Source: a virus
IMG/VR virus record: IMGVR_UViG_3300036791_000423
Location: 1-61,268 of that record
DNA: 61,268 nucleotides
Strand: one strand, 5' to 3'
This document shows positions 10,963 to 28,517 of this stretch, one piece after another. The notes below the pieces were generated by a model. It saw only the letters and a program-made list of their open reading frames with translations, ran no database searches and was not told the origin of the DNA. How positions within the stretch are numbered: position 1 is the first letter of the stretch; every line of letters starts with the position of its first letter. The translations under genes were made by a program, and so were the position numbers.

Positions 10963-11121
10963 ATGTCGAACAATGATTTCATTTGCGAAGATTGCAAATA
11001 CCATGTCTACGGTTTCGGATTCAAGAGAGACGCAAAGCTTTGCGTCAATTGTCAATGGCTCAAAGATCATCCAGACGCATCAGAAGAAATCAAGGCAATC
11101 ATAAGAGGAGAACGCAAATGA
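10963..11121 (+). CDS. Small zinc-ribbon protein
   Basis: 52 residues with CEDC and CVNC pairs spaced about 18 residues apart, a four-cysteine zinc ribbon. GGGAGGTGAC site 7 nt before the ATG. First gene after a terminator and ATGA-coupled to QueC, so it heads the deazaguanine operon. It might assist DNA recognition, but that is inference. Confidence 0.7.
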   Translation: MSNNDFICEDCKYHVYGFGFKRDAKLCVNCQWLKDHPDASEEIKAIIRGERK

Positions 11122-11885
11122 CTTCAGCGCTAGTGATTCTGTCCGGTGGCCAAGACTCAACGACATGCCTTTACTGGGCCAAGCAATATTACGACAAAGT
11201 GCATGCGATCACCTTTGACTATGGCCAGCGGCACCGGCGCGAGCTTGAAGCCGCGTTTCTGATTGGCCATATGGCCAAGACTGATTCGCATGAGATTTTA
11301 CCAATAGGATCGATACTGGCAGGCAAATCACCGCTGACCGATCATTCGCAGCCACTTGAGACCTATTCCGATTACGCGTCTATGGACAAGATCATCGGTA
11401 ATCGTGTCGAGCTGACATTTGTACCAATGCGCAACGCATTGTTTCTGACACTGGCAGCCAATCGCGCTGCGGTGCTTGACATCCAAAACATCATCACAGG
11501 CGTATGCCAGCAGGACAATGCCAACTACCCTGACTGTAGATTAAGTTTTATCCGCAGCATGCAACAAACGATCAACGAGGCGCTTGGCTTGGATTACACC
11601 ATGCGTATCATCACGCCATTGATGACCTTGTCCAAGGCTGACAGTATCCGCATGGCGATGGAACTACCCGGTTGTATGGATGCCTTGGCCTATAGCCATA
11701 CTGCTTACGACAATGCGTATCCGCCCAATGGCAGGGACCATGCTTCAACACTGCGCGCCCAAGGCTTTTTGGAAGCCGGTATCCCCGATCCGCTGATAGT
11801 CCGCGCAGTGTTTGAAAACCTGATGGACCTTCCGGCAGGGACAAATTATGATGGCTTGCGCACCATCGCAGTCAAAGGGGAATAA
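11118..11885 (+). CDS. queC: QueC-like 7-cyano-7-deazaguanine synthase, zinc site lost
   Basis: 255 residues, normal length for QueC, which uses ATP and ammonia to convert 7-carboxy-7-deazaguanine (CDG) first to the amide ADG and then to the nitrile preQ0. The PP-loop is intact (SGGQDS, residues 9-14), as are DYGQRH and PMRNALFLTLA. The C-terminal zinc motif, usually Cys ... CGxCxxC, here reads A196 ... NGRDHAS (N204, D207, S210). All four cysteines are missing while LRAQGF and GIPDP around it are conserved. The enzyme may be altered or may stop at ADG. ATGA overlap with the preceding ribbon gene fixes the start. Confidence 0.85.
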   Translation: MTSALVILSGGQDSTTCLYWAKQYYDKVHAITFDYGQRHRRELEAAFLIGHMAKTDSHEILPIGSILAGKSPLTDHSQPLETYSDYASMDKIIGNRVELTFVPMRNALFLTLAANRAAVLDIQNIITGVCQQDNANYPDCRLSFIRSMQQTINEALGLDYTMRIITPLMTLSKADSIRMAMELPGCMDALAYSHTAYDNAYPPNGRDHASTLRAQGFLEAGIPDPLIVRAVFENLMDLPAGTNYDGLRTIAVKGE

Positions 11886-11888
11886 CCC

Positions 11889-12248
11889 ATGATCCAGATC
11901 ACCCGCCGCTATCACTTTGAAGCCGCGCATTTCCTGCCCAAGGTCCCTGAAGGCCATAAGTGCAAACGCATGCATGGCCACAATTATGAGATCGAAGTCA
12001 CCGTCGCCAAGCCGCTAGGTAAAGACGGCTTCCTGATGGATTTCGCGGACCTCGACAAGCTGGTACAGCCAATCATTGACAAGATTGATCACCGCACGCT
12101 CAATGACATCAAAGGTCTTGAAAATCCAACGGCTGAACTGATCGGTCAGTGGTTTATGGACAAGCTGGCCAAGCATGATGTGCATGGTATAAGAGTGTAT
12201 GAGACAAAAGATTGTTGGAGCACAATCTGGAGGCCAGCCGATGAATGA
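11889..12248 (+). CDS. queD: QueD, 6-carboxytetrahydropterin synthase
   Basis: 119 residues, full length. Converts dihydroneopterin triphosphate to 6-carboxy-5,6,7,8-tetrahydropterin, step two of 7-deazaguanine synthesis. Zinc histidines and catalytic cysteine are present: HFEAAHFLPKVPEGHKCKRM followed by HGHNY. The downstream DFADLDKL, IDHRTLNDI and GLENPTAE blocks match E. coli QueD closely. Starts 3 nt after the queC stop and overlaps folE by 8 nt. Confidence 0.9.
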   Translation: MIQITRRYHFEAAHFLPKVPEGHKCKRMHGHNYEIEVTVAKPLGKDGFLMDFADLDKLVQPIIDKIDHRTLNDIKGLENPTAELIGQWFMDKLAKHDVHGIRVYETKDCWSTIWRPADE

Positions 12249-12831
12249 ACTGGATGATGAGCGAAATCAATTCGCTATCAAAACACTGCTAAAATTTATC
12301 GGCGAAGACCCAAACCGCGAAGGCTTGCGGGATACGCCTGCTCGCGTCATGCGTGCTTGGCGCGAATGGGCCACCGGCTATACTCAAGACCCGGCAACCA
12401 TCCTTGCGCGGACCTTTGAAGATGGCGCGCAAGACTTCAACGAAATGGTGATCGTGCATAACGCACCGGTCATCAGCAAATGCGAACACCATTTGGCTGA
12501 CATCATAGGCCATGCCCATATCGGCTATATCCCAAAAGGCAAGATCGTAGGCATTTCAAAGCTGGTGCGGCTGGTGGATTGCTTTGCCCGTCGATTACAG
12601 GTCCAAGAACGGCTTACGACGCAGATTGCCGACGCGATTATGCAGCACCTCGAGCCGATTGGAGTGGGCGTGCTGGTACGAGCATCGCATGCCTGCATGT
12701 CAACGCGTGGTGTCAACATCCAGCGCTCGGTGACGACCACATCGGCCATGCGCGGTGCGCTGATGGACAAGCCGGAAGCGAGAAAAGAATTTCTGGACCT
12801 ATGTGCAATGGCGGAAAAAGAAGTTCAGTAG
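12241..12831 (+). CDS. folE: GTP cyclohydrolase I
   Basis: 196 residues. Opens the guanine ring of GTP to give dihydroneopterin triphosphate, the entry step for 7-deazaguanine. Key parts are visible: NREGLRDTPARV, the zinc/catalytic CEHH, PKGKIVGISKLVRLV, RRLQVQERLT, and the second zinc cysteine in CMSTRGV with SVTTTSAMRG. The start at 12241 follows GGAGGCCAGCCG and overlaps queD. A phage copy presumably boosts flux beyond the host folate enzyme. Confidence 0.92.
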   Translation: MNELDDERNQFAIKTLLKFIGEDPNREGLRDTPARVMRAWREWATGYTQDPATILARTFEDGAQDFNEMVIVHNAPVISKCEHHLADIIGHAHIGYIPKGKIVGISKLVRLVDCFARRLQVQERLTTQIADAIMQHLEPIGVGVLVRASHACMSTRGVNIQRSVTTTSAMRGALMDKPEARKEFLDLCAMAEKEVQ

Positions 12832-12843
12832 GGGAGTGATCAT

Positions 12844-13836
12844 ATGCGTATCTATCTGGCAGGCTGGTGGCATGTCGGCAACGCCATCGGAACCAACATC
12901 CATCAGTATAATCTGCATACCGTGCGGTATCCGTTTCATCTCGAGTCGTTCCATTACATGGACCGGCAAATCATTCAGCAGGCCCGCATGGCACAGACCA
13001 AGATGTTCTTGGACAGTGGCGCATTCAGCGCCATGACACAAGGCGTAAAGATCAACATCAAGGCTTATGCCAAGTTCATCCAAGGCAATCAGGACATCGT
13101 CGATTTCGCTTCCAATCTTGACGATACCACCAAGACCGAACAGGTAAGTTACGACAATCAAAAGTATCTGGAAGGTGCAGGCTGCCAAGTCAAGCCGGTG
13201 TTCCATTGTCGCGAAGACGAGAAATGGCTGCGCCGCTATATCGACGAAGGTTACGACTACATCCTGTTGGGCGGCATGGTCCCAGAAACCACCAAATGGC
13301 TAATCGGCTGGCTTGATCACCTTTGGCATCACTACTTTACTAAATCAGATGGTACCGCACGGTTCAAGGTTCATGGTTTTGGCTTGACCAGTCTACCGCT
13401 GATGTATCGCTATCCATGGTATAGCGTCGATTCGTCATCATGGGCACAGACCGCCAAGTTCGGCGGTGTCCTGCTTGACATCATGCAGCCTGATGGCAGC
13501 TATAAGGATTACAACATCGAGTTTTCCGACAACACCGCCAGCCGTTATAATCTGCACGGCTGGCACTATTGGAGTTTAAGCAAAGATGAGCAGCGGACAA
13601 TTGAAAACCGCTTGGCCGAGATGGAGGAAGCACGCCATAAAAATCCTGAAATCGAAGACCGCTTGGCGGTGATGATGAAATGCAAACAAGGCTTCTACCC
13701 CGAAGCTTTGGCCAAATCTTACGGCTGGCGCATGTATGCCAATCTGGAATATTTCCGCCGTGCCATGGAACGCCGCGTCACAACGTTTCGTCGTAAGCAG
13801 GATACTCTGTGGGACCACTTTGGGAGGACCGGATGA
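12844..13836 (+). CDS. dpdA: DpdA-like DNA 7-deazaguanine transglycosylase
   Basis: 330 residues of the TGT-like fold. DpdA-type enzymes swap guanine in DNA for a 7-deazaguanine base. Signature blocks: FLDSGAFSA (D57, a candidate catalytic or base-binding aspartate), SNLDDT, VFHCRED, YILLGGMVPE, FKVHGFGLTSLPLM and YSVDSSSW (D196). This matches the phage group of DpdA proteins rather than the bacterial tRNA TGT. The location right after queC-queD-folE says the pathway product goes into phage DNA, probably to block restriction. The C-terminal about 70 residues are helical and less typical. Confidence 0.88.
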   Translation: MRIYLAGWWHVGNAIGTNIHQYNLHTVRYPFHLESFHYMDRQIIQQARMAQTKMFLDSGAFSAMTQGVKINIKAYAKFIQGNQDIVDFASNLDDTTKTEQVSYDNQKYLEGAGCQVKPVFHCREDEKWLRRYIDEGYDYILLGGMVPETTKWLIGWLDHLWHHYFTKSDGTARFKVHGFGLTSLPLMYRYPWYSVDSSSWAQTAKFGGVLLDIMQPDGSYKDYNIEFSDNTASRYNLHGWHYWSLSKDEQRTIENRLAEMEEARHKNPEIEDRLAVMMKCKQGFYPEALAKSYGWRMYANLEYFRRAMERRVTTFRRKQDTLWDHFGRTG

Positions 13837-15536: not shown

Positions 15537-16235
15537 ATGCACGGAAAAAATCATATAGAAAGAGTGAAACATGACGAGGGCATGGAATTGCATGTTGTCA
15601 AAGGTAGTCCGTTTCTCACTATCCAAGGCGAAGGGCCATATATCGGATATCCGGCTATCTTCATTAGGCTGCATGGTTGTCATCTACGTTGCGTATTTTG
15701 CGATACTGCTTTTGATGATGCCGACGACCCGACTTGGACCATCTACGATCTTGTCGGCAAAATCACCCGCATTTGTAAGCTTGCCAAACTTGTCGTCATC
15801 ACCGGCGGCGAACCCATGCGGCAAAACATCAAACCACTATGCCAACAATTATGCGGCAACGGTTTCCGCGTGCAAATAGAAACCGCCGGAACATTTTGGC
15901 TGGATGGCATCGAAAAATATGCCGATATTGTCTGTTCGCCCAAGACACCGACAATCCACAAAGAGGTATATCGTCATGCCAGAGCCTTCAAATATGTCAT
16001 CAGTACTGGACAGATTTTCGACGATAGCTACCCTGTACCAATTACAGCGACGCAACCGGAAGCGCGGCCGAACCGGCTGGCGTTGCCGCGCCGCGGTGCG
16101 GCGGTTTATCTTTCGCCGATGGACGAAGGAGATGAAACCGCCAATGCTGCCAATCGTAAACTCGTCGGCGAACTCGCCATTCGATTCGGAGTCATCGCCG
16201 GAATCCAATTGCACAAATTTATAGGTGTCGAATGA
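15537..16235 (+). CDS. queE: QueE, 7-carboxy-7-deazaguanine synthase
   Basis: 232 residues, radical SAM enzyme that turns carboxytetrahydropterin into 7-carboxy-7-deazaguanine. LTIQGEGPYIGYPAIFIRLH precedes the iron-sulfur motif CxxxCxxC (C48, C52, C55; GCHLRCVFCDTAF), then VVITGGEP and QIETAGT. All match known QueE. It is separated from queC/D and folE by the dpdA-clamp stretch and has its own leader, so it may be independently expressed. Start at 15537 is set by AGGAGAAATAAAA. ATGA overlap with the next gene. Confidence 0.92.
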   Translation: MHGKNHIERVKHDEGMELHVVKGSPFLTIQGEGPYIGYPAIFIRLHGCHLRCVFCDTAFDDADDPTWTIYDLVGKITRICKLAKLVVITGGEPMRQNIKPLCQQLCGNGFRVQIETAGTFWLDGIEKYADIVCSPKTPTIHKEVYRHARAFKYVISTGQIFDDSYPVPITATQPEARPNRLALPRRGAAVYLSPMDEGDETANAANRKLVGELAIRFGVIAGIQLHKFIGVE

Positions 16236-24371: not shown

Positions 24372-25079
24372 ATGGCACGAGCAAAGAAAACATTGTCCGC
24401 CGACGTAGTGCAGCTAACCCAAACCCAGCGAGCCGCAAAGCAAGCCGCTACACCAAAGCCTGAAACCAAGGTCGTGATCACGCCGCCCAAGCTGGCCACA
24501 GCCACTGTCACTATCATCGGCAAAGCTCCCTATCTGCAAAACCGCTTTTCATCCGACAATCGTGACAAGATGATGGAGGCGCAAAAGGCTGGTAGCGCGG
24601 CCAAGAAAACCCGCAAGGCCAAGGCACCCAAAGACTTTGAAAAGGTCTATCGCGGTTCAATGCATGTATCGCAGGATGGCTGGCACGGCATCCCTTGCAC
24701 TGCCTTACGGAACGCCATGATCGACGCGTGCCGCTTGACCGAGATGGACATGGTGCGCGCCAAGATGTGCATATTCATCGTCGAACAAGGCCGTGACAAG
24801 GAAAACCTCGAGCCGCTGGTAAAGATCGATGGTAAGCCGCAGATGCATATCGAACGTGTCAAGGTTGGTATGGGCAGCACCGACCTTGCCGCGCGTGCGA
24901 TGTTTGTCAAATGGTCCTCGACGTTTGAGATCACATGGGATGACGACGTATTCCATGCACAGGATATCATCAATCTATTGGCCCGTGCAGGCTGGCAAGT
25001 CGGCATCGGTGCCGGTAGACCATTCTCAAAAATGTCTGGTGGTACTGGCAAGGGGACCTTTGAGGTACGGCAGTCATGA
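24372..25079 (+). CDS. Conserved phage protein of unknown function
   Basis: 235 residues from the ATG at 24372 (AAAGGGAAATACC upstream). A Lys/Ala-rich N-terminus precedes beta-rich segments (ATATVTIIGKAPYLQNRF; GIPCTALRNAMIDACR; FEITWDDDVFHAQDIINLLA) and a Gly-rich end (GIGAGRPFSKMSGGTGKG). The order (strand, then PxxALRNAM helix, then glycine-rich GxGRPxS loop) reads like a conserved single domain, possibly nucleic-acid-binding, which I cannot name. It heads a four-gene overlap run to 25918. Confidence 0.7.
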   Translation: MARAKKTLSADVVQLTQTQRAAKQAATPKPETKVVITPPKLATATVTIIGKAPYLQNRFSSDNRDKMMEAQKAGSAAKKTRKAKAPKDFEKVYRGSMHVSQDGWHGIPCTALRNAMIDACRLTEMDMVRAKMCIFIVEQGRDKENLEPLVKIDGKPQMHIERVKVGMGSTDLAARAMFVKWSSTFEITWDDDVFHAQDIINLLARAGWQVGIGAGRPFSKMSGGTGKGTFEVRQS

Positions 25080-25363
25080 CCGCACACGACGAAGGCTTTA
25101 TTCCCGACGGTACGATGTGGCTGCAACCCAAAAATACGTTGCCGCGCATCGAGCAGCTATGGGCCATTGTATCGGTGGACGCCCAAGATGGTAACGAAGG
25201 CGTCTGCGCCGCCATGATCGGTGGCGTAATCATGCCGCTGATTGCCGCTGACGAAAAGCGGCTCGAACAGATTGTGCCGATTGCGAAAGAAGTCGCGGCC
25301 GAGACCGGCACAAAGTTTAAGCTGGTAAGGTTTAGCAATCGCGAGGAGGTATCGGACATATGA
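25076..25363 (+). CDS. Hypothetical protein
   Basis: 95 residues, ATGA-coupled both sides. Beta-rich with QLWAIVSVDAQDGNEGVCAA and TKFKLVRFSNREEV. No known family. Confidence 0.65.
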   Translation: MTAHDEGFIPDGTMWLQPKNTLPRIEQLWAIVSVDAQDGNEGVCAAMIGGVIMPLIAADEKRLEQIVPIAKEVAAETGTKFKLVRFSNREEVSDI

Positions 25364-25918: not shown

Positions 25919-27180
25919 GCAGGCATAGCAGTTCTTTGCCGAGCTGAGCTGTGATTAGTCTAGCAAAGCGGAGCTGAACATAGCCCAGCAGGCAAAGCGG
26001 AGCAACTCAGGGCCACTCGTCACCGAGCTTAGCCTAACCCTGCTCGCCCGTACCCTGCACATCGTGTCAGCGCTTAGCAGTGCAGGCCAAGCTCTCCATA
26101 GCTAAGCCGAGCTTGGTACTGGCGGTGCGCAGTAAAGCAGGCTAAGCTAAGCGAAGCCACATGGAGCAAAGCCCAGCACAGCAGGCAAAGCCAATCAGTG
26201 CAAAGCGGAGCGGTGCGGTGTCAAGCTTGGCTTAGCGGGCAGAGCTTACCTAGGCTGACAACGGCGAAGCGGTGCAAGGCAGGCATGGCATGGCATGGCA
26301 TGGCGTAGACGGTCCTTGCGATCTATGTGCGTGGCCCGGCTAGGCAGGCCAAGCCAAGCATAGTATACCAAGCTTAGCGTAACCGAGCAGAGCAGGCCGT
26401 GCATGGCACAGCCGATCTTGTCCGTGCATAGTCGAATCAAAGCGATGACCAGCGGAACTTGGACCGGCAAAGCAGGCGCAGCAAATCCAAGCGGAGCCTG
26501 TTACATCGTAGCGAACTGAAGCCTAGCATGGCAGGCGAAACTGAACAAAGCGCAGTCCAACCCGGCGGTGCTGAGCGTCTCTGACCACAACTGAGCGCGA
26601 CACGGCACAGCAGGCAAAGCACTTTACGGCTTAGCGTAGCTTGACGTTACACTGTCCTGCCGAACCGTCCTGAGCAGAGCAGGCTATGTGATGATATGCG
26701 AAGCGTTTCGATGCGAAGCGGATCGTGGCTAAGCAGGCCAAGCGAACCACAGCAGATCGTAGCCCAAGATGCATAGTGAAGCCGCTCACTGTTAAGAACG
26801 GCCGAGCTAGGTATAGCAAGACGAAGCCAACCGCTGCGAAGCGATGCATAGCAGGCATGGCATAGCTTCACTAGTCAGAGCGTAGCGTGGCCGATCTCTG
26901 CAAGCCGGACCAAAGCAAAGCTGGCCCAGCAGAACAAGTCCCGGCCCTGTCGTGCTGATCAGTGTACTGCCCGACAAATTCGAGCGAGACCGGGCAATGC
27001 GCAGCAGGCCAAGCTAAACTTAGTAGTGCTTGATCTGGCAGTGCTTGGCAAAGCAGGCACGGCAATGCAAGGTCGCGCCGAGCCCGATCAGGCCCATCGT
27101 GGCCCAGCCTAGCTCAGCAGGCATGGCACAGCTCCGCATCCAGTACAAAGCGAAGCGAAGCTTGTCATCGCAGCGCAATG
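25919..27180. repeat. GCAG/GCNNN pentamer-phased array, left block
   Basis: No convincing gene. GCAGGC occurs exactly at 25919, 25988, 26082, 26137, 26181, 26279, 26344, 26392, 26472, 26531, 26610, 26679, 26733, 26851, 27004, 27053 and 27117. Between these markers the sequence reads as successive five-base units that mostly begin with GC (GCTAA, GCGAA, GCAAA, GCCCA ...). Each marker contributes a four-base unit GCAG that resets the phase, so spacings are typically 4+5n. A degenerate marker GCGGGC at 26235 splits the 98-nt gap into 54 and 44. GCATG is repeated four times at 26283. Confidence 0.85.
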
Positions 27181-27190
27181 CTGGCATATT
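27162..27190 (+). promoter_or_regulatory. Candidate promoter inside the array
   Basis: TTGTCA (27162-27167), 17-nt spacer, CATATT (27185-27190), 32 nt before the ATG at 27222. The spacing is good and the -10 box is weak. Confidence 0.35.
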
Positions 27191-27221
27191 AAACTTCAAG
27201 CGACCAAAGCAAGGGAGCACC

Positions 27222-27395
27222 ATGATGAAATACAAATTATTTGTCGTCTTGGCGTTGTTCTCCGCAATATGCTTGATCACTGGTTACATGCTATCACGAG
27301 ACCAAATGTCGGCGTGGGCACTGCTGGCTTTTATACTCAGCAGTTGGTTCGCGCTGTCATTTGGTTTTATGGTTGGATTGTTTGGTGCAAGGTAA
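27222..27395 (+). CDS. Small two-pass membrane protein inside the array
   Basis: 57 residues, MMKYKLFVVLALFSAICLIT as first membrane helix and ALLAFILSSWFALSFGFMVG as second, short charged turn (RDQMSA) between. AAGGGAGCACC precedes the ATG. The array repeats stop about 100 nt before it and resume 2 nt after its stop. It is the only credible gene in 25919-28520. It resembles holin-like or immunity-type small phage membrane proteins, without a specific match. Confidence 0.6.
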   Translation: MMKYKLFVVLALFSAICLITGYMLSRDQMSAWALLAFILSSWFALSFGFMVGLFGAR

Positions 27396-27396
27396 A

Positions 27397-28517
27397 GCAG
27401 GCTTGGCATAGCGGAGTGACGTTGAGCATAGTCAAGCGAAGCAGGCAATACAGTGCTAAGCTCGGCTGACTATGCTATGACCAGCGAAGCAGGCAGTGCA
27501 TAACCTAGCGACACCCGGCGTGGCAAAGCGCTATCAGCAAATCAATGCGTTGCAGGCTTAGCCTTCCAAGCCAAGCACGGATCATCACAGCGTAGTTATG
27601 CTCTGTCAAACCAAAGCAGGCCGAGCACTGCCCAGCATGCCTCGGCAAACATGGCGGTGCATATCCATGCTAAGCTGAGCAGGCTATGCGAAGCCACGTT
27701 GTTCTGTGCGGAGAGGAGCATGTCAAAGCACGGCTCGACCATGCAGGCGTAGCCCAGCTAGGCCGAGTGGAGCACGGCTTGGCGCATTCCTAGTTGAGCA
27801 AAGCTGAGCAGAGCTGGCGAGGCATTGCTAGGCTAAGCCTTGGCATCAAAGCACAGCAAGGCAATGCCTAGCAGGCCGAGCTTGGCTTAGCCGATTGGTG
27901 CGGTGCGCGGCATAGCGGAGCAGGCTAAGCTTGACAAATCCTAGCAAGACAGAGTCAAGCGGCGTCTGGTGGAGCCCAGCAAGGCAAGCAATGCGGTGCT
28001 TTCCGGAGCGCTGCAAAGCCCGATAGGTCTCAGCGATGCAGGCGAAGCGGAACGCTGCCAAGCTTTGCCAGACATTGCGACGCGTAGCAGGCACAGCCTT
28101 GCTAAGCGAATCCCGGCACTAACCAGCCTAGCACAGCAGGCCCAGCCCAGCGTACCGAATCGTTGCCCGGTGCTGCATACCAGTGTTCTGCAAAGCGAAG
28201 CTATACAAAGCAGGCATAGCCAAGTTGCACGCACCATTGCTGTGTTCAGCACACATATCGTAGCAAAGCAGGCTCCGCAGTTAAGCGCCTTCGGCATTGT
28301 AAAGCTCTGCATGACCTAATCCAAGCGGTGCAGTGCCCAGCGGAGCAGGCTAAGCCAAATCGCTCGAGACTAAGCAAAGCTTGCCGGAGCACAGATGAGC
28401 GAAGCTGTGCAGGCGTAGCGAAGCGCGATATAGTAAAGGGTGCTTTGCCGAACGGCGCAATGCCGAGCAGGCTAAGCGAAGCGTACAAAAAGCCTAGCTT
28501 AACACTGCTTAGCAGGC
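27397..28517. repeat. GCAG/GCNNN pentamer-phased array, right block
   Basis: Exact GCAGGC at 27397, 27441, 27489, 27552, 27616, 27679, 27743, 27871, 27920, 28038, 28087, 28136, 28210, 28268, 28345, 28409, 28467 and 28512. From 27489 to 27871 the markers recur every 63-65 nt, counting a degenerate GCAGAGC at 27808. 28038-28087-28136 are exactly 49 apart. Several segments are fully in phase, for example 27679-27743 (8 of 12 units begin GC) and 28038-28136 (14 of 18). Apparent ORFs here have no ribosome sites and are phase artefacts. Confidence 0.85.

Follow-up and report, generated by a model that had tools for sequence, protein, structure and literature searches.

A VIPR-type guide array in a contractile-tailed phage, with RNA-guided repression of immunity genes as its likely purpose

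VIPR (Viral Interference Programmable Repeat) is a phage system that works through RNA guides and was presented in a preprint of 2026 (PMC13142463), according to whose main text a phage RAMP protein binds vrRNAs built of YNNGG pentamers. In these, NN alone pairs with DNA and one target base is skipped, usually the codon wobble position. The traits given there are a single-RRM RAMP protein named Vipr, a GGY constant triplet, hypervariable NN, 9–16 repeats per vrRNA and a DNA-related vap gene; an invariable structured 3' tail is described for the SUSP1 clade, and array architecture varies by VIPR type (PMC13142463). Natural targets reported in the main text are satellites, prophages, phages and other VIPRs but no host defence genes, and the terms "CBASS" and "anti-defense" are absent from it (PMC13142463). 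Class 1 CRISPR-Cas effectors with their Cas7/Csm3 backbone share with the locus presented here a RAMP fold, a G-rich loop and a presumed periodic protein–RNA filament; in our locus, however, the period is 5 nt and not 6 nt, direct repeats are absent and guide information is broken every 5 nt. Phage-encoded RNA or protein acting against host immunity, as the present array may do, is also represented by RNA anti-CRISPRs (Racrs, PMC10651486) and protein anti-defence factors. Racrs are described as mimics of CRISPR repeats (PMC10651486), whereas the array would address many immune genes by sequence.

The locus is located in a 61,268 nt stretch of viral DNA (IMG/VR record IMGVR_UViG_3300036791_000423), hereafter the window, and comprises the following features.

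24372–25079, + strand: gene A, predicted Vipr-like RAMP protein of 235 aa from ATG, phrog_4652, with the C-terminal G-rich loop VGIGAGRPFSKMSGGTGKG
25076–25363, + strand: small ORF of 95 aa between genes A and B, found by tblastn only in the closest relatives, L058 and L072
25360–25803, + strand: gene B, candidate accessory protein (vap) of 147 aa, phrog_15946
25919–28517, + strand: putative vrRNA-type guide array of GCNNA pentamers, with 35 GCAGGC delimiters and ~30 guides
27222–27395, + strand: hydrophobic ORF of 57 aa inside the array, read directly, with a homologous stretch in L058
28526–28555, - strand: intrinsic terminator of the leftward arm, an 11-bp stem followed by TTTTTT, at the right edge of the array

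The array is almost certainly a vrRNA array of a VIPR system. As in the type II VIPR of Escherichia phage SUSP1, a RAMP (Vipr) gene, an accessory gene and a tandem pentamer array lie on the same strand, a constant triplet alternates with NN, targets fit a 1-nt wobble skip and the Vipr proteins are related in sequence. Differences concern the constant triplet, AGC/AGY in the window versus GGY in SUSP1 and in the published consensus, and the number of guides (~30 versus four in the SUSP1 VIPR). Guides in the window follow one another head to tail, separated by nothing but GCAGGC, whereas SUSP1 vrRNAs carry a structured 3' tail; no such tail was seen in the window array, where GCAGGC alone follows each guide. 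Targets identified for the window are bacterial immune or conflict genes, in contrast to the phage and satellite targets in the main text of the VIPR preprint. Judged by that main text, two things appear to be new: the AGY form, in which GCAGGC stands bare as a delimiter, and, most of all, a target class made up of conserved immune-gene motifs.

A recount of GCAGGC between positions 25919 and 28517 gave 35 copies on the + strand, exactly as the original prediction had stated, and 0 on the - strand, while 20 copies are present outside the array in the rest of the window. The copies are separated by 34 spacings, not 33 as previously given, and 17 of these are 4 modulo 5 and 11 are 3 modulo 5, as claimed; five more are 0 and one is 2. 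The proposed 5-nt phase is evident in autocorrelation, with identities of 0.415, 0.364 and 0.366 at lags 5, 10 and 15 versus 0.19–0.28 at off-period lags (1–4, 6–9 and 11–13); in the rest of the left arm identity is 0.22–0.27 at all lags. The phase-aligned unit is GCNNA (G.74, C.85, A.57) with near-uniform NN, that is, constant AGC alternates with two free bases. Phase resets at GCAG, also part of the prediction, could be assigned to the 4-nt AGGC step within each GCAGGC, which closes a block or guide.

No long ORF fits the array, consistent with its description as non-coding, except that the 57-aa ORF (27222–27395, +) interrupts it. This ORF gave no PHROG match. It has a possible ribosome-binding site and is also found in the close relative L058. 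TRF and a nucleotide BLAST search returned nothing for the array, because its unit content varies. Near-identical direct repeats with spacers were observed neither by TRF nor by eye, and the array is neither CRISPR nor a simple microsatellite, as the prediction had held. An assembly artefact was considered and ruled out, since about 90 arrays with the same GCAGGC delimiter, of which some are overlapping loci of one contig, were found in IMG/VR and isolate phages.

The module architecture is directly visible in the sequence. Gene A is situated ~0.8 kb upstream of the array, which lies directly downstream of two conserved + strand genes, A and B, and stops at the - strand terminator (28555–28526). 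The array therefore reads as the 3' part of a rightward operon. This corrects its earlier placement at the convergence of two transcription arms, in so far as a neutral zone between them was implied.

Sequence comparison and the modelled fold indicate that gene A encodes a Vipr-like RAMP protein. Its profile matches PDB 36pp, the SUSP1 Vipr protein, with E 9e-5 (E 0.048 for the single sequence, without a profile). The AlphaFold model (pLDDT 73.6) was compared by Foldseek, and every one of its best PDB matches is a RAMP subunit of the Cas7/Csm3/Cmr kind or a related protein of type III/VII (TM 0.3–0.45, probability 1.0, E 6e-5). Gene B has a weakly winged-helix-like fold, with no Foldseek match below E 0.1, and among the contigs checked by tblastn its homologues adjoin the array in 13 array-bearing ones.

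Scanning IMG/VR with the DNA pattern AGCAGGC(NNAGC)3 disclosed periodic arrays in ~20 contigs. Where a contig had sufficient flanking sequence, genes A and B almost always adjoin the array and share its orientation. Often the array fills the stretch from the stop codon of gene A or gene B to a point directly ahead of the following gene's ribosome-binding site. When the gene A protein alone was used as a query, 80 IMG/VR loci were retrieved, and a same-strand 5-nt array was present in 79 of them; in the single arrayless locus the sequence ends ~100 bases past the gene. GGC is the constant triplet in most arrays obtained in this way, and AGC in relatives of the window. Nearly all arrays use GCAGGC, with 845 same-strand and 16 reverse-strand copies in 79.8 kb. 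The GGC form was also found in the isolate phages Cy-LDV1, Ecliptus and Donkeykong.

Arrays of different phages were further compared with regard to the two free bases. In homologous sectors of the window and L058, aligned unit by unit, constant positions differ at 97 of 462 and NN positions at 30 of 308 (p 3e-5), a contrast exaggerated by the choice of sectors through NN similarity of at least 75%. Identical NN strings recur across arrays with AGC and GGC constants. For example, the sector at window 26613 and a GGC array in L130 have 16 consecutive NN bases in common, with constant positions only 48% identical. Several recurrent NN groups are distributed among the window, L058, L072, L042, L073, L128 and L130, and differences among copies are such as a protein motif would tolerate (e.g. 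TT/CT, both Leu). When NN strings were tested for their codon strand, the best fit came from the wobble frame, which hardly stood apart from a frame that skips codon position 1. We conclude from these sequence patterns that each unit's pair of free bases is most consistently read as guide sequence. The original prediction, in noting that unit content varies, missed that the varying bases would be the functional guide part and the RAMP gene the likely partner.

Guides were decoded by reading NN with the published 1-nt skip in the target. At least five of ~30 window guides gave matches in bacterial antiviral or conflict genes, some perfect and most short by 1–5 bases; about 25 guides of the window have no target assigned to them. 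The genomes with matches were sampled from a single bacterial order and do not represent the phage's own host. The five guides and their candidate targets are listed below.

26535–26609, + strand: guide of 15 NN, Bil-type JAB protease, antisense VVA[QH]V[QH]T[QH]PGGA[LF][QH]S
26683–26732, + strand: guide of 10 NN, CBASS CD-NTase active site, sense Y[DE]Y[DE]V[DE][DE]GVY
27683–27742, + strand: guide of 12 NN, MBL-type gene, antisense [CW][DE]V[LF][IM]PP[HQ][HQ][CW]SY
27988–28037, + strand: guide of 10 NN, Nmad2, antisense S[DE]LG[LF]AP[NK]P[LF], 18–19/20 bases
28140–28209, + strand: guide of 14 NN, CBASS CapV phospholipase, antisense [LF]YS[LF][DE]L[IM]AGTSTGG

Each of the five, with 10–15 NN, ends exactly at GCAGGC, so that one sector corresponds to one guide. 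Other sectors contain ~8 to 18 NN, some of them outside the 9–16 repeats of VIPR. Four of the five window targets are antisense to the gene, as are most identified targets.

The guide at 28140 decodes to FDLIAGTSTGG, the CapV patatin site. Among 199 genomes, which represent the order of an Afipia genome, it has four matches, all in patatin-like phospholipases, with 0 for the reversed-pattern control. Its exact match (22/22 bases over 11 NN, 23/28 over the whole guide) is inside a phospholipase–cyclase–E2 CBASS operon (PADLOC E 4e-97, 8e-129 and 3e-67). The guide at 26683 matches 18/20 bases at skip 1 and 14/20 at other skips in a gene adjoining CapV in L389; the target reads KDYDIDDGVY, and motif and neighbour together suggest a CD-NTase active site. 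The guide at 26535 decodes to VVAHVHTHPGGAFHS, a JAB motif, and its single match in 199 genomes is in a BilC-like JAB gene adjoining a BilD-like E1 (26/30 bases at skip 1, 20–21/30 at other skips). This target family is present in 7 of 259 genomes.

The guide at 27683 matches 21/24 bases, and its L058 copy 23/24, with 0 for the reversed control. Searched as WDVFxxPHHCSY, it gave three matches in 327 genomes, all in the MBL-type gene, and 0 for the control. In L386, the copy examined, an E2-E1-JAB protein and a patatin are encoded in the same operon as this gene; in L387 the gene adjoins HmaA/HmaB. Exact patterns of the MBL and JAB guides had 0 matches in IMG/VR, and a relaxed MBL pattern had seven there, which are chance-like.

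The recurrent guide at 27988 follows the antisense pattern x-[DE]-[LF]-G-F-A-P-N-P-F. A GTDB scan with it resulted in 70 matches, with ~4 expected by chance (an estimate), and 68 of the 70 carry the Nmad2 motif, the skipped base being the wobble base. Pfam assigns two virus examples to Nmad2 (E 1e-59 and 3e-40), and the L058 version of the guide is perfect (20/20) in 23 genomes. TerL was also considered as a target of this guide, as its window version has 20/20 matches in 13 marine TerL contigs; these were put down to chance, given that Nmad2 is indicated by the guide versions of L058, L042 and L128 as well as by 68 of the 70 genome matches. Nmad2 is grouped here with conflict and modification genes and is at most a candidate defence gene.

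Matching of guides was compared among skips, shuffles and DNA pools. In defence islands (30 stretches, 451 kb), 20, 13 and 10 guides scored at least 16, 17 and 18 at skip 1, against 0.8, 0.2 and 0 for ten shuffles of the guides and at most 3, 0 and 0 for skips 0, 2 and 3. Control DNA (20 stretches from the same genomes) gave 2, 2 and 1. Part of the defence pool was chosen through decoded guides, and part of this excess is therefore by design. Matches independent of the choice appeared for window 26683, L034, L128 and L072: a sense guide of L034 and an antisense guide of L128 match CapV DGGVWANNP, and L072 guides match the E1 motif GLGNLGQAY and the C5-methyltransferase motif QVGNAVPPL. A non-circular comparison used only BilC, CapV and Nmad2 loci retrieved as HMM families, without the decoded guides. 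Matches of 18/18 were found at skip 1 only, in BilC loci (window 26535, L072 9816), CapV loci (window 28140, GGC-type L124) and Nmad2 loci (window 27983, L042), with a maximum of 17 for shuffled guides and other skips. A target search through 0.8–1.5 Mb of mostly related phage DNA revealed no excess over shuffled guides, and targets are thus not mainly in close relatives.

We infer from the sequence that the array would be transcribed, processed, bound by Vipr and used for repression, with targets in the phage's own host rather than in rival elements. It would be read rightward behind vipr and gene B, and cutting or starting at GCAGGC would yield ~30 guide RNAs. Along each, the Cas7-like RAMP Vipr would assemble with one subunit per 5 nt, which would grip the constant [A/G]G[C/T] and leave NN exposed; successive NN pairs would touch target DNA on either side of one skipped target base. 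With the skip on the wobble base of the codon, synonymous change need not prevent a guide from recognising a conserved protein motif. Guides would be aimed at CBASS CapV and CD-NTase, a Bil-type JAB protease, the MBL gene of an E1/E2/JAB operon and Nmad2. The array is very probably a VIPR-type guide store in a contractile-tailed phage, and as the matched genes are antiviral or conflict genes, its likely purpose is RNA-guided repression of immunity genes during infection. To the fuller reading, a multiplexed anti-immunity system whose wobble-skipping guides are tuned to catalytic motifs conserved in CBASS, Bil and further defence proteins, we assign a probability of about 0.7.

It is rather unlikely that such a VIPR array is truly aimed at rival phages, satellites or prophages and that the matched immune genes are those carried by such elements. 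Defence genes often ride on mobile elements, and the target genes occur also on prophages and other mobile elements; the BilC-like target adjoins a resolvase-like gene, and an IMG/VR virus contig contains one Nmad2 match. The preprint's main text, moreover, names satellites, prophages and other VIPRs as targets (PMC13142463). Against this, 1.5 Mb of related phage DNA gave no match excess, and the identified motifs are those of immune or modification genes, with no phage structural or lysogeny gene among them apart from the marine TerL contigs judged to be chance. Action of a VIPR-derived array on mRNA instead of DNA would explain why antisense orientation to the gene, and thus complementarity of guide and mRNA, prevails among targets (four of five in the window). 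Sense-strand targets nevertheless exist (window 26683, L034 2575, L072 6935), and SUSP1 Vipr is reported to bind double-stranded DNA (PMC13142463). Since both strands are represented, DNA targeting fits better, and we consider the mRNA alternative improbable.

A structural or regulatory pentamer repeat without guide content, be it a TRAP-like leader, a packaging or replication element or a decayed microsatellite, would agree with the strict 5-nt phase and the fixed GCAGGC, and is nonetheless scarcely credible. It is NN strings, not constant bases, that are conserved and common to several phages; they match defence genes in excess at the 1-nt skip only, and the RAMP gene adjoins the array in 79 of the 80 loci retrieved by that gene. 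TRAP-bound leader RNA has about 11 (G/U)AG triplets at 4–5 nt spacing, whereas in the array AAGC (76) is commoner than GAGC (37) and TAGC (33) and units number in the hundreds. Of the roles suggested originally, an RNA whose reader protein covers 5 nt with each subunit is probably right, with the neighbouring RAMP gene product as the likely reader in place of a TRAP-like ring. A DNA packaging scaffold and a replication terminus are wrong or unsupported, given the conserved NN strings and the RAMP gene adjoining arrays.

If the multiplexed anti-immunity reading is true, this would be programmable anti-defence, in which a guide library against immune genes replaces one inhibitor protein per system. 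One phage could then repress many defence systems across hosts, and guide sets would recur, as observed, among phages with different constant triplets. Recognition at the level of protein motifs also suggests a reason for skipping codon position 3, and the arrays, with another constant triplet, allow the VIPR code to be checked independently on natural sequences. Decoding could in addition lead to immune genes that phages address and biologists have yet to name (e.g. VPFGRTTL, R-G-V-T-N-T-N-V).

Further guides recurring among phages are located at window 26855 and 26614, L072 7497 and 7052, L042 1181 and 1797, L073 6867 and 7466, and L130 4682. Their readings include VP[FV][GD]RTTLxxII, RGVT[NK]T[NK]V and [KN][PS][ST][LF]L[IVT][DE]V[IM]. 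All of these may target unnamed immune genes; the VPFGRTTL guide (G5) had 0 matches in 327 genomes. Decoded only, L072 8950 reads as the DEAH-box motif IDEAHELLSW. L072 6935 corresponds to the C5-methyltransferase motif QVGNAVPP and L124 6733 to the HTH motif GMSRASIANIE. These readings suggest that the target range may extend past CBASS and Bil.

Near-identical phage contigs from many metagenomes (L138–L152 and L106–L123) carry partly different arrays and lend themselves to measurements of guide gain and loss. Further arrays with a 5-nt or otherwise short period (C-rich, lacking GCAGGC; GGGCCAGGC-like) are present in L046 (6600–7600) and L053 (12200–13019); with their different composition they are possibly other VIPR-like types. 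Elsewhere in the window, predicted genes include a QueC-like gene (10983–11885), a GTP cyclohydrolase gene (12199–12831), a queuine tRNA-ribosyltransferase-like gene (12844–13836) and a QueE-like gene (15537–16235), and with these four the phage probably makes a 7-deazaguanine DNA modification.
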